In this document: one piece after another, positions 4,572 through 57,348 of the stretch | How the letters are laid out: each line of letters begins with the position of its first letter | Numbering within the stretch: the stretch's first letter is position 1 | DNA from: Cyanosarcina radialis HA8281-LM2 | GTDB taxonomy: Bacteria > Cyanobacteriota > Cyanobacteriia > Cyanobacteriales > CCAP-1448 | NCBI GenBank assembly: GCA_019359615.1 | Contig: JAHHHA010000011.1 | Span: 1-64,000 of the forward strand | Reading direction: 5' to 3' | Length of the DNA stretch: 64,000 bases | Position numbers and translations under genes: made by a program | Notes under the pieces: generated by a model | The model's input: the letters and a program-made list of their open reading frames with translations, nothing else | The model's database searches: none | What the model was told of the DNA's origin: nothing

Positions 4572-6485
4572 CTAACTTACTAGTGCTTCTTGAATCGTTT
4601 GGTTGTAAATCGCTCTACCGGGTGTGGTGCGAATGTATTGGGAGATCGTTTCTCCTGCTGCATCTAGGCGGAGGCGGCGGTGTTTGTAAAGCTGCATCAC
4701 CGTACCGTCTCCGAGTTCTTCGGTTTGCAGCAGTTTGTCGTCTGCTTTTTCCGTTTCTACCGGACCTAAGTAGCGCACCCAAACGTAGTCGTGCAAGCCA
4801 ATTTGTTCGTGCTGGTAGGCTTGGATGACATCTTCGAGGTTGCCGAAGAAGCGATCGCTCGTCTTCGCAGCGGGGTTGTCGGCTGTGAGGTAGTAGCAGC
4901 CCAAAACCATATCTTGGCTGGGAGCAACGATCGGCCGGCCCGTGGCTGGTGAGAGGATATTATGGCAAGCCAGCATCAGCAGTCTCGCTTCTGCCTGAGA
5001 TTCCAAAGATAAGGGCACGTGAACTGCCATTTGGTCGCCATCGAAGTCAGCGTTAAACGCCGGACAAACTAAAGGATGTAACTGAATAGCTCGACCATCG
5101 ACTAATATGGGTTCAAATGCTTGAATCCCCAGTCGGTGCAAGGTGGGAGCGCGGTTGAGCAATACCGGGTGTCCGGAAATTACTTCGTCTAATACATCCC
5201 AGACGCTCGGATCGCTGCGTTGGATCAGCTTTTTGGCAGCTTTGATATTATTCACCAAACCGCTGCGGATCAGGCGGTGAATGACAAAGGGTTGAAACAG
5301 TTCGATCGCCATTTCTCTGGGCAACCCGCACTGGTGAATTTTCAGCTTCGGCCCGACCACGATCACGCTCCGGCCGGAGTAGTCCACCCGTTTGCCTAGC
5401 AGGTTTTGCCGGAAGCGACCTTGTTTGCCCTCAATAATGTCTGAGAGGGACTTCAGCGGGCGGTTGTTAGCGCCTACTACCGTTCGTCCGCGCCTGCCGT
5501 TGTCGATCAAAGCGTCTACCGCTTCTTGGAGCATCCGCTTCTCGTTGCGAACGATGATTTCTGGAGCCAGGATTTCTTGCAACCTGGCCAGGCGGTTGTT
5601 GCGGTTGATCACCCGGCGATACAAGTCGTTGAGGTCGGAGGTGGCAAACCGTCCGCCATCTAGCTGCACCATCGGGCGCAGGTCGGGCGGGATTACTGGA
5701 ATTACTGACAGCACCATCCACTCTGGATCGCTGCCTGTGGCGATAAAGTTGTCGATCAACCGCAAGCGTTTGATCAGCTTGGCCCGCTTTTGACCTTTAG
5801 CAACGGCAATTTCTTCCCGCAGTTTTTCGGCTTCGATTTCTAAACCGCGCCTAGTGTCGCCATTTTTATCTACGCCTTCTTTGTCGAGATCGCGCAATAA
5901 AACTTGCAAGGCTTCAGCCCCAATTCCCACTTCAATGCCTTCGAGTTGAGAATCTTCGCTGTAAAGTTGCTCTTCGATCTCCAACCACTGATCTTCGGTC
6001 AGCAGTTGCTTGTAAGAGAGGCGATCGTCATTTCCTGGATCTAGCACCACATAAGCATTGAAGTAGACTATTTGCTCGACATCTCGCAGCGGCATATCCA
6101 GCAGAATGCTCAAGTAACTGGGAATGCCCTTGAGATACCAAACGTGAACTACTGGGGCTGCCAGCTTGATGTAGCCCATCCGGTGGCGGCGCACCCGCGA
6201 TTCGGTAACTTCCACACCGCAGCGTTCGCAGACGATACCCCGGTGTCGCACCCGCTTGTATTTACCGCAATGGCACTCCCAATCCTTCGACGGGCCAAAA
6301 ATGCGCTCGCAAAACAGGCCGTCCATTTCGGGTTTGAGCGTCCGATAGTTGATCGTTTCTGGTTTGGTAACTTCCCCTACTACTTGACCGTTCGGCAGGG
6401 TTCTTTCGCCCCATATCCGAACCTTTTCTGGCGATGCCAGACCGATTTTTACGTAGTCAAACCGCTGTTCTAGCTGAGGTCTCAT
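4572..6485 (-). CDS. rpoC1: RNA polymerase gamma (beta-prime-1) subunit (RpoC1)
   Basis: N-terminal half of the split beta-prime subunit, 637 residues, typical for cyanobacteria. The zinc ribbon CHCGK...CERCG lies near residues 71-90. The catalytic magnesium loop [12 protein letters not shown] is near residue 478, and the rudder/lid region [20 protein letters not shown] is clear. It lies between rpoB and rpoC2 on the same strand and is expected to be co-transcribed. The 184-bp gap before it carries repeated GTGTGGAGT-like units up to a few bases before the ATG, so no clear Shine-Dalgarno sequence is seen. Confidence 0.98.
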
Positions 6486-53965: not shown

Positions 53966-54877
53966 ATGATTGACCACGACCGCCTCTTCAAAGAACTACT
54001 CTCTACCTTTTTCCTGGAATTCATCGAGCTATTTTTTTCTGAAGTGATAGCGTATCTCGAACCCGATTCCGTCACTTTTTTGGATAAGGAGATATTTACC
54101 GATGTGACGGCGGGAGAACGCCACGAAACCGATTTAGTCGTACAAGCACAGTTTCGAGGGCGATCGTCTTTTTTCCTGATTCACCTAGAGAATCAATCGG
54201 AATCGAGAGGTAACTTTAGCCAGAGGATGTTTACCTATTTTGCCAGGTTACATGAGAAATTTGCTCTTCCCGTCTATCCGATCGCGGTTTTTTCCTACGA
54301 TGAACCTCAAAAAGCTGCTGCTAGTAACTATCAAATTGAGTTCCCCGATTGGAAGGTACTAGAATTTAATTATCGTGCAGTTCAACTCAATCGACTCAAT
54401 TGGCGAGATTTCTTGAACCAACGCAATCCTCTAGCTTCGGCATTGATGGCCAAGATGAAAATTGCCCCTCAAGAGCGTCCGCAAGTCAAAGCTGAATGTC
54501 TCCGCCTGCTAGTCACCTTAAAGCTAGATCCAGCCAGAATGCAGTTGATATCGGGGTTTGTGGATACATATTTAAGATTAACCGAATCAGAGGTAAAAGT
54601 ATTTGAATCAGAACTCAGTACAATTGAACCAAAGGAGAGAGAAGAAGTGATGCAAATAGTAACTAGTTGGATGGAACAAGGTATCGAGCAGGGGCAAAAG
54701 GAAGGTCAGATTAAACTAGTTTTACGAATGCTGTCGGTGAAATTTGGCTCTTTGGACTCAGAAATGGAGGCACAGATTCGCAGCTTAGAAATCGATCGAT
54801 TAGAAGATTTGGGAGTAGCATTGTTGAACTTTCAGCATATGGAAGATTTAACTAAGTGGTTGCAAAATTTGACATAG
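53966..54877 (+). CDS. Rpn/YhgA-like putative nuclease with C-terminal DUF4351
   Basis: A 303-residue protein of the transposase-like PD-(D/E)XK (Rpn/YhgA) group. The N-terminal core shows HDRLFKELL at the start, an Asp in HETDLVVQAQ near residue 50 and FFLIHLENQSES near 70 (the E-x-Q active-site variant). The linker WMEQGIEQGQKEGQIKLVLR and the end SLEIDRLEDLGVALLNF...LTKWLQN are DUF4351. Related proteins in E. coli promote RecA-independent recombination; the role in cyanobacteria is unproven. It pairs in style with the gene at 41322. Confidence 0.85.
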   Translation: MIDHDRLFKELLSTFFLEFIELFFSEVIAYLEPDSVTFLDKEIFTDVTAGERHETDLVVQAQFRGRSSFFLIHLENQSESRGNFSQRMFTYFARLHEKFALPVYPIAVFSYDEPQKAAASNYQIEFPDWKVLEFNYRAVQLNRLNWRDFLNQRNPLASALMAKMKIAPQERPQVKAECLRLLVTLKLDPARMQLISGFVDTYLRLTESEVKVFESELSTIEPKEREEVMQIVTSWMEQGIEQGQKEGQIKLVLRMLSVKFGSLDSEMEAQIRSLEIDRLEDLGVALLNFQHMEDLTKWLQNLT

Positions 54878-55007: not shown

Positions 55008-55700
55008 ATGAGCTACTGCCTCAACCTCAACTGTCAGAAACCCCAGAATGCAGCTAACACGACATTTTGCCAAAGTTGCGGCACAAAACTACTTTTGCGA
55101 GAACGTTACCGCGCTATCAAAACGATCGGACAGGGTGGATTTGGGAAAACTTACTTAGCCGTAGATGAAGACAAACCATCTAAGCCTGCGTGTGTCATCA
55201 AACAGTTTTACCCTCAAGCCCAAGGAACTGACAACGCCCAGAAAGCGGCTGAACTCTTTGCCCAAGAAGCAGTTCGCCTCGATGACTTGGGCAAACACCC
55301 TCAAATTCCCGAATTGCTGGCGCACTTTACCCAAGACGATCGCCAGTATTTAGTGCAGCAATTCATCGAAGGAGAAAACCTGGTCCAAAGCTTAAAAACC
55401 GAAGGCACTTTTAACGAAGCCAGAATTCGCCATTTATTAACTAATTTATTACCAGTTTTAGAGTTTATTCACTCCCATCAGGTCATTCATCGGGATATCA
55501 AACCAGAGAATATTATTAAAAGCCGGAACGAGCAATTAGTATTAGTAGATTTTGGCGCAGCTAAATACGCTACGGGAACGGCTTTAATGAAAACCGGAAC
55601 CGTAATTGGTACGGCGGAATATATTGCCCCAGAACAAACTAGAGGAAAAGCCGTTTTCGCCAGTGATTTATATAGCTTGGGCGTAACTTGCATTCATTGA
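55008..55700 (+). CDS. Ser/Thr protein kinase domain with N-terminal zinc ribbon, cut by an in-frame TGA
   Basis: N-terminal half of a kinase-FGE fusion. Residues 4-25 are a four-cysteine zinc ribbon (CLNLNCQ...CQSCG) typical of cyanobacterial four-Cys kinases. Then a Hanks kinase core: glycine loop GQGGFGKTY near 44, Lys in CVIKQF near 62, HRDIKPENII near 160, DFGAAKY near 181 and GTAEYIAPEQ near 202. The frame reaches DLYSLGVTCIH and stops at TGA (55698-55700). The same frame continues at once with LTDISPFELFDVAEDDW, exactly as in intact relatives (CIHLLTDISPF), so one Leu codon appears replaced by TGA. The truncated product lacks the last kinase helices and is probably inactive. The complete gene would span 55008-56810 (600 residues). 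A sequencing error is possible. Confidence 0.85.
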   Translation: MSYCLNLNCQKPQNAANTTFCQSCGTKLLLRERYRAIKTIGQGGFGKTYLAVDEDKPSKPACVIKQFYPQAQGTDNAQKAAELFAQEAVRLDDLGKHPQIPELLAHFTQDDRQYLVQQFIEGENLVQSLKTEGTFNEARIRHLLTNLLPVLEFIHSHQVIHRDIKPENIIKSRNEQLVLVDFGAAKYATGTALMKTGTVIGTAEYIAPEQTRGKAVFASDLYSLGVTCIH

Positions 55701-55724
55701 CTCACTGATATCTCACCATTTGAA

Positions 55725-56810
55725 TTGTTTGATGTCGCTGAAGATGACTGGGGATGGCGACAGTTTTTAGTCGATAACCCTGTCAGCGACGAACTGGGTC
55801 GAGTTCTCGATAAGACGATTGCCAATGCTACTAAGCGGCGCTATCAGTCAGTTGATGAAGTATTAACTGACTTGAACCAGGCAAATGTCAAGACGTTGCC
55901 ATCTAATGTTTCTACACTACCTAAATCGGCAGCCAAAAATATCGTCATCTCCACACCAAATCCCGTCAAACCAAGCCCTCAAAAATTACCTTTACAAACT
56001 TTTGAGTTTGAGGTGGTGATATTAGATGCACGAGGGAAGATAATCGATAAAAGTCGGAGACGAGCCGAATACTTGACGGAAAATTTAGGTGGGCGCATAA
56101 TTTTAGAAATGGTGAAGATTCGTGGTGGCACATTTATGATGGGTTCGCCAGATAATGAGGAGGGAAAAAATGACGATGAAAGTCCGCAGCATCGAGTAAC
56201 TGTAGGCCCGTTTTTTATGGGCAAATATCCCATTACTCAAGAACAATACGAAATAGTAATGGGTAACAATCCATCTCATTGGAAAGGCAAGAAACAACCA
56301 GTAGAACAAGTTTTCTGGCATGATGCCAATGAGTTTTGTCAAAAGCTATCTCAAATAACTGGTAAAACCTATCGCCTACCGAGTGAAGCCGAATGGGAAT
56401 ATGCCTGTCGTGCGGGAACAACTACACCCTTTCACTTTGGGGAAACAATCACCACAGATGTAGCCAACTACTACGGGAATGATACATACGGCTCAGCCCC
56501 AAAAGGCGTATTTCGCGAACAAACAACCGATGTAGGTAGTTTTCCCCCTAATGCTTTTGGGTTATACGATCTGCACGGCAACGTCTGTGAATGGTGTGCC
56601 GATCCTGGCCATGCAAATTACAATGATGCGCCCTCTGATGGCAGCGTTTGGGGATCTGGAGGACATAATGAACTCTGGATGCTGCGCGGAGGTTCAGGGG
56701 GCCATAGTCCTAGGTATTGCCGTAGCGCGACTCGTCTCATTCACGAGCCGGACAAAAGGAGGAGGAGCTTCGGTTTTCGCGTTCTCTGTTCCTCAGCGCA
56801 GACTCATTAG
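55725..56810 (+). CDS. Formylglycine-generating-enzyme-like (SUMF1) domain, C-terminal half of the split kinase fusion
   Basis: Second part of the fusion interrupted at 55698; a TTG at 55725 could restart it (361 residues). Residues 1-45 complete the kinase C-lobe. Residues about 128-360 are an FGE/SUMF1-type C-type-lectin fold: GGTFMMGSPDNEEGKNDDE, QPVEQVFWHDANEFCQKLS, RLPSEAEWEYACRAGT, NAFGLYDLHGNVCEWCAD and a final LRGGSGG...FGFRVLC. In most such proteins the last segment is asparagine-rich (NNNP, NRNNN). Here those positions are varied while the scaffold is kept, as expected of a diversity-generating-retroelement target. It is probably a ligand- or protein-binding sensor, not a sulfatase activator. 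Confidence 0.82.
   Translation: MFDVAEDDWGWRQFLVDNPVSDELGRVLDKTIANATKRRYQSVDEVLTDLNQANVKTLPSNVSTLPKSAAKNIVISTPNPVKPSPQKLPLQTFEFEVVILDARGKIIDKSRRRAEYLTENLGGRIILEMVKIRGGTFMMGSPDNEEGKNDDESPQHRVTVGPFFMGKYPITQEQYEIVMGNNPSHWKGKKQPVEQVFWHDANEFCQKLSQITGKTYRLPSEAEWEYACRAGTTTPFHFGETITTDVANYYGNDTYGSAPKGVFREQTTDVGSFPPNAFGLYDLHGNVCEWCADPGHANYNDAPSDGSVWGSGGHNELWMLRGGSGGHSPRYCRSATRLIHEPDKRRRSFGFRVLCSSAQTH
56680..56792 (+). other. Candidate DGR variable region (VR)
   Basis: This is the last scaffold segment of the FGE-like domain, from LRGGS to FGFRVLC. Constant scaffold codons (GGS, P, CRSA, R, EPD, FGFRV) alternate with codons where related proteins have Asn. The observed codons, such as CTC, ATT, CAC, AGC and TTC, are each reachable from AAC or AAT by changing adenines only. 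AAA and the AGG codons are not, if the template codon was AAC. The region ends with TTCGGTTTTCGCGTTCTCTG, in the place where an initiation-of-mutagenic-homing site would lie. No template repeat or reverse transcriptase is in this window. Confidence 0.45.
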
Positions 56811-56882: not shown

Positions 56883-57119
56883 ATGTTTTTTCGCCGGATT
56901 AGCAAACGTGAAGTTCAAGCAGTTATAGCCTATGGAGAAGTAATTGAAGAAAACCTTGATGATACCCCGTTTCCTAGCTATGTTTTACTTGATTTTGTCG
57001 AAGGTAAGCCCATTCATGTAGTTTTTTCTTACGATGAATCTACAGATACAGGTTACGTTGTAACTGCTTATATACCAGAGCGGAATTTGTGGTCAGATAA
57101 TTTTAGGACGAGGAAATAA
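56883..57119 (+). CDS. DUF4258 toxin-like protein, N-terminus cut by an in-frame TAA
   Basis: A 78-residue frame with the DUF4258 core: MFFRRISKREVQAVIAYGEV, PSYVLLDFVEGKPIHVVFSY and GYVVTAYIPERNLW. The family is a toxin-like partner of YgiT-type zinc-finger antitoxins. Intact members start further upstream with an FSxHA motif. That motif is present in the same frame (VFSSHAI, 56856-56876, after a GTG at 56838), but a TAA at 56877-56879 separates it from the ATG. So either translation restarts at 56883 without the conserved His, or the gene is a pseudogene of 56838-57119. Confidence 0.78.
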   Translation: MFFRRISKREVQAVIAYGEVIEENLDDTPFPSYVLLDFVEGKPIHVVFSYDESTDTGYVVTAYIPERNLWSDNFRTRK

Positions 57120-57123
57120 ATTT

Positions 57124-57348
57124 ATGAAATGTGTAATTTGTAAACATGGTAATACCAAACCTGGTTTGGCAACTGTTACTTTAGAGCGAGATAATTGCTT
57201 GGTCATTTTCAAGAAAGTCCCAGCCGAAGTTTGCGATAACTGTGGTGAATATTACTTGAGCGATATAGCCACCGAACAGTTATTACAGCAAGCGGAAACA
57301 GCAGTCAATAATGGTGCTGAGGTAGAAATTATTAGGTATGCGGCTTAG
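57124..57348 (+). CDS. YgiT-type zinc-finger (MqsA-like) antitoxin
   Basis: A 74-residue protein with two CxxC zinc-binding pairs: CVICKHGNTKPG at residues 3-6 and VCDNCGEYYLSD near 37-40. This is the N-terminal zinc domain of MqsA-type antitoxins without the helix-turn-helix domain, as is usual for cyanobacterial partners of DUF4258. It starts 4 bp after the DUF4258 stop and is intact, while the toxin frame is interrupted. Confidence 0.9.
   Translation: MKCVICKHGNTKPGLATVTLERDNCLVIFKKVPAEVCDNCGEYYLSDIATEQLLQQAETAVNNGAEVEIIRYAA

Follow-up and report, generated by a model that had tools for sequence, protein, structure and literature searches.

The window, that is the whole stretch of DNA analyzed (64,000 nucleotides), carries on its forward strand a gene in which a Ser/Thr protein kinase is followed by a domain of the FGE-sulfatase type. 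The features of this locus are as follows:

55008..55700, + strand: four-Cys motif and Hanks-type Ser/Thr kinase, ended early by an in-frame TGA (ORF list, sequence, Pfam, alignment)
55698..55700, + strand: in-frame TGA, codon 231 (alignment with 36 relatives)
55701..56810, + strand: open remainder in the same frame, comprising the kinase end, linker, FGE domain and stop codon (ORF list, sequence)
56106..56783, + strand: FGE-sulfatase/C-type-lectin-fold domain PF03781 (Pfam; PDB sequence matches)
56688..56783, + strand: tail resembling a variable region, GGSGGHSPRYCRSATRLIHEPDKRRRSFGFRV, 32 codons (alignment with templates of diversity-generating retroelements (DGRs) and variable regions of other cyanobacteria)

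Organization of the kinase–FGE gene

A four-Cys motif (MSYCLNLNCQ...FCQSCG) was found at the N-terminus of the translation. The translation also contains GQGGFG, VIKQF, HRDIKPEN, DFG and APE, which we take to be the catalytic motifs of a Hanks-type kinase. A Pfam profile search with the stop read through matched Pkinase at residues 34–239. The TGA at 55698–55700 closes the kinase ORF after 230 aa and is followed by 369 open codons in the same frame, up to position 56810. The FGE domain (PF03781) occupies residues 367–592 of the 600-residue read-through product. The kinase domain is therefore not complete in one open frame. The initial annotation had described a four-Cys kinase joined in frame to an FGE domain; both parts are present, but the TGA interrupts the kinase. 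Absent readthrough, the lectin half would not be made as part of the kinase.

The best PDB sequence matches of the FGE domain were PvdO, a Treponema variable protein and SUMF1. Variable protein 1 of Treponema denticola (2y3c; E 3.8e-26), the second-best match by E-value, has the same FGE/C-type-lectin fold but is a 294-residue chain without a kinase. With the SUMF1 formylglycine-generating enzymes the domain has the family PF03781 in common. Human SUMF1 has two cysteines in the aligned stretch, presumably its catalytic pair; one of them is kept in the window gene and the other faces Ser. The FGE domain of the window gene probably has a binding role and not an enzymatic one.

The scaffold LRGGS...CRSA...EPD...FGFRV, reported previously for the last segment, was found in the sequence, as were the codons CTC, ATT, CAC, AGC and TTC at sites where Asn was expected. 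The AAA and AGG codons that do not suit an AAC template and the Gly after GGS, where Trp was expected, were likewise verified.

Upstream of the gene (53966–54877), a protein with a C-terminal DUF4351 is encoded. Positions 56883–57348 contain a DUF4258 gene and then a weakly MqsA-like gene (under the Pfam cut-off), possibly a toxin–antitoxin pair. Fragments of another kinase–FGE gene, possibly broken, were noticed elsewhere in the same genome (G000 C21:300054-300999; L025, L055).

DGR components in this genome and in its relatives

The assembly comprises 6.5 Mb in 65 contigs, with a completeness of 100. A search with PF00078 (RVT_1) revealed four proteins. One of them scored above the NCBIfam cut-off for group II intron maturases; the second was slightly below this cut-off and adjoins an ORF which, we assume, resembles Cas1. 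The remaining two were retron-like, with scores under the retron cut-offs. The stretch IGNLTSQ, present in both DGR reverse transcriptases (RTs) of the sister genome G001, was found in none of the four. When a G001 DGR RT was used as the query against the assembly, the best matches were the first two RVT_1 proteins, with 26–27% identity, and no DGR RT was found.

The assembly was also searched for a template. A query consisting of the tail and 155 flanking bases recovered none; five FGE paralogues of the same genome matched over the stretch before the tail, and the other matches were a 35-base piece in the tail of the paralogue C54 (E 0.4) and pieces of 15–21 bases. A foreign template (from genome G302) matched the window tail with E 1.9e-8, a value that is partly circular because this template had first been found using the tail. 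Its further matches in the assembly were the tail of the paralogue C37 (E 0.066) and seven short ones (E 0.2–5), none of them a template-like copy. As a positive control, a G001 variable region retrieved its own template with 84% identity. Since neither a DGR RT nor a template was found in the assembly, no resident DGR rewrites the tail, and the gene is not a DGR target today in this assembly. The genome-wide search for a template copy and a DGR RT, suggested together with the proposal that the gene is a DGR target, thus speaks against that proposal for the present state.

G001 is the only other member of the family among the genomes compared. It contains two full DGRs, C49 (L063) and C96 (L064), with two FGE targets each. 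Over 114 bases, these targets differ from their templates at 16–22 adenines and at 1–2 other bases. An Avd gene was found in the C49 copy, the one tested (bAvd, PF22296). The second target of C96 is split into two ORFs by a stop at positions 5597–5599. The FGE targets of both DGRs share the GGSW...CRSA...GFRV scaffold with the window gene. They differ from it in that an RT and a template are present and the targets are template-matched; the two long targets have N-termini other than the window kinase, and neither cassette was detected in the genome of the window.

We sampled 388 genomes of the order: 79 contain a match to a DGR RT with E<=1e-60, and 152 a kinase–FGE relative with E<=1e-150. 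Matches to the tail DNA (E<=0.001) occurred in 20 other genomes, and at least four of them (G238, G302, G034 and G140) are Asn-rich templates directly adjoining a DGR RT. Kinase–FGE genes were compared with templates in three genomes. Mismatches affected 0/68 non-A and 6/28 A positions in G238 (in trans), 2/70 and 15/26 in G003, and 1/70 and 17/26 in G288 (in cis). These matches indicate that such genes are DGR targets elsewhere. A kinase was found in at least 1 of 63 cis targets, which is a lower bound because the fetched loci end early.

Kinase–lectin DGR targets, including remote and remnant ones, have already been published (PMC7517822). In that study (Vallota-Eastman et al. 2020), a kinase is given as the commonest N-terminal functional domain of cyanobacterial DGR targets, with CLec at the C-terminus, and the paralogue all3226 of Nostoc PCC 7120 is described as having remnant TR–VR homology and no RT nearby. 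The window gene is like these variable proteins and remnants in its kinase and C-terminal CLec. It differs in that the searches of its whole assembly found neither a DGR RT nor a template, and in the in-frame stop of its kinase. Such targets are proposed to sense antigens (PMC10907252). Titles and abstract openings revealed no apparent report of orphan targets in a DGR-free cyanobacterium.

Tests of a possible former rewriting

Whether the gene had formerly been a target was assessed in three ways. Compared at the level of sequence, the rewriting of variable sites appears to speak for it, the codon endings against it, and the scaffold is borderline.

The first comparison concerned the variable and scaffold sites of the tail in gene pairs. 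The window gene and the G001 gene C2 are reciprocal best matches with 66% identity over 603 aligned positions, the tail being left out. They retain 16/18 scaffold sites and 2/14 variable sites. The pair C37–C113 is similar (68% before the tail; scaffold 15/18, variable 3/14). In contrast, more variable sites are retained in the pairs C45–C119 (63% before the tail; 18/18 and 11/14), C59b–C201 (51%; 16/18 and 9/14) and C17–G001 C17 (17/18 and 9/14), the last of which is supported by the FGE tree and is not a reciprocal best pair. The difference between 2/14 for the window gene and 29/42 for the C45, C59b and C17 pairs together gave p 0.0005 in a Fisher test. However, the FGE body of the window–C2 pair is 61% identical according to BLAST with gaps counted, versus 74%, 68% and 67% in the C45, C59b and C17 pairs; in gap-free columns, it is 70% versus 75% and 69% in two comparison pairs, among the pairs listed. 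In addition, the trees did not settle the branching order inside the clade of the window gene, C17, G001 C17, C2 and C15. Owing to the unsettled window–C2 orthology and the lower BLAST identity of the FGE body, this test favors rewriting, but not cleanly. Within the clade, the kinases of the G001 genes C15 (L066) and C2 (L065) are sisters with support 94/91, and their FGE tails differ even in length.

Among the pairs listed, the FGE body of the window gene is nearest to that of C37 of the same genome (78% identity), and no variable site is shared (0/14). Scaffold changes between the two comprise 8 synonymous and 3 nonsynonymous ones, and the 59 codons preceding the tail already contain 19 nonsynonymous changes. 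The kinases of the two genes belong to different clades of the tree. A close FGE body combined with distant kinases fits a shuffling of lectin modules between kinases, which may have taken place here. The C37 gene itself (L018; G000 C37:261814-263709, minus strand) has an intact 700-codon kinase–FGE frame, and its tail is more similar to a variable region than the window tail is.

For the second and third comparisons, a panel of templates was built from DGR RT loci, because the match with the G302 template was partly circular. It included 87 loci, some cassettes being fetched twice, and gave 65 distinct template-like sequences, defined by at least seven AAY codons; the loci L316 and L319 are not in the panel. 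The 51 of 65 templates with 32 codons were kept for the scaffold, pair and codon comparisons, and a separate comparison of tails was limited to those with 33 codons (94/116).

The best identity of the window tail to any of the 51 templates at non-A positions was 0.779. The lowest value for 58 cassette variable regions against foreign templates was 0.785, just above that of the window tail. Fourteen tails conserved between genera, and thus regarded as fixed, gave 0.63–0.74, while FGE tails of other phyla, whose DGR status was untested, gave 0.77–0.79. The values for C37 and C28 of the same genome were 0.83 and 0.82. Against the three nearest templates tried, the window tail has 13–15 A and 15 non-A mismatches, so the differences are not adenine-only.

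Codon endings were evaluated at the 10 sites where AAC or AAT occurs in at least 60% of the 51 templates. The third position is C or T at 7/10 of these sites in the window tail. Of the 54 proven variable regions, 51 have 10/10 and three have 9/10. In 12 comparison tails regarded as fixed, the count was 4–9/10; C37 and C28 had 10/10 and 8/10, respectively. The codon pattern at the Asn sites, previously read as a sign of a DGR, is therefore not special by itself. The Gly after GGS and the AAA and AGG codons do not fit the common templates. The PDKR stretch is common to the tails of the window gene and of C54 (L016), which makes it possible that both were derived from an unusual template of this lineage with AAA at that place.

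Two further approaches were of no use. The Fisher tests of A versus non-A mismatches, run with two foreign templates (p 0.004 and 0.024), were set aside: in any FGE domain the variable sites lie in surface loops, so that a former target is not separated in this way from an ordinary gene. A scan for inverted repeats of at least 6 bases within 40 bases 3' of the variable region found one 6-base palindrome in the window, which is uninformative. The two G001 C49 targets had two palindromes and none, respectively, and the one C96 target examined had A/T-rich 7-base arms and palindromes.

Origin and significance of the gene

We interpret the gene as a damaged member of the known cyanobacterial family of kinase–FGE sensors, and consider it just probable that a DGR wrote the tail in an ancestral genome and was then lost. 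In this family, the four-Cys motif and kinase are followed by a lectin domain of the FGE fold with ligand contacts in its C-terminal loops. In an intact member, binding of a ligand by the FGE tail would presumably alter the kinase activity or the choice of substrate; both effects are put forward as hypotheses in PMC7517822. As the sequences of other genomes show, DGRs in relatives copy a template with adenine errors into the tail of the gene. In the lineage of the window gene, the tail may have been written in this way, the DGR lost and the tail left to drift, an order of events that we slightly favor, and the TGA would truncate the kinase. The odds that the gene was formerly a DGR target, taken alone, are about even. 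This part of the initial annotation gains from the template-matched homologues and the rewritten-looking sites and suffers from three codon endings at odds with an AAY template, from the unsettled orthology with C2 and from a similarity to foreign templates slightly below the range of proven variable regions.

The main alternative, which has a substantial chance of being correct even if we do not expect it to be, is that the gene is an ordinary kinase–FGE paralogue that was never rewritten by a DGR, or not since its divergence, its tail differing because duplicated sensors diverge quickly in the loops that bind ligands. The codon endings of the tail resemble those of fixed tails and are below those of all 54 proven variable regions, its scaffold match falls slightly under the cassette range, and the Gly and the AAA and AGG codons are at odds with common templates. 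That neither a DGR RT nor a template was found in the assembly agrees with this alternative; moreover, the tails of C45, C59b and C17 in the same genome are clearly fixed between genera, and variable sites differ between ordinary paralogues too. Against it stand the retention of 2/14 variable with 16/18 scaffold sites, compared with 9–11/14 variable sites in the three better-settled pairs, and the templates adjoining DGR RTs among the tail matches in the 388 genomes.

It is doubtful, in our opinion, that the TGA is a sequencing error or is read through to produce the 600-residue fusion, which would be compatible with any other explanation of the tail. In an alignment of 37 proteins, all 36 relatives that passed the filter (C54 and C32 of the same genome were left out) have Leu at the TGA site, and no sign of TGA recoding was noticed; C54, outside the alignment, has Ala. 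On the other hand, the frame stays open 3' of the TGA and conserved sites are retained, the losses in four scored regions being 1/77, 1/8 (this one being the TGA), 3/68 and 0/6. The rate of loss at conserved sites other than the stop is no higher than in relatives, so there is no sign of long decay and the TGA could be a recent change or an assembly error. The loss of Trp was considered as a sign of decay and dropped, since the alignment gave no excess of losses.

It is very improbable that a DGR lying outside the assembled contigs, such as a plasmid-borne one, acts on the gene at present. The 65 contigs leave room for it, as do the plasmid-borne DGRs and the remote targets reported for cyanobacteria (PMC7517822), but the completeness is 100, no DGR RT or template was found on any contig, and the codon endings are not like those of a fresh copy.

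More broadly, and tentatively, the genome may hold a frozen repertoire of kinase–lectin sensors left by a lost DGR, with the window gene, C37 and perhaps C28 as relics at different stages of decay; we regard this as unlikely. If it were true, the loss of a hypermutation system could be dated and the variants kept by selection would become visible. The analysis corrects a tempting annotation, that of an intact and currently hypermutating sensor kinase, and it provides a controlled trial of criteria that might separate relic from ordinary FGE tails. Should the tail indeed have been written in an ancestor, this family would record the fate of DGR-written receptors after the loss of the writing machinery.
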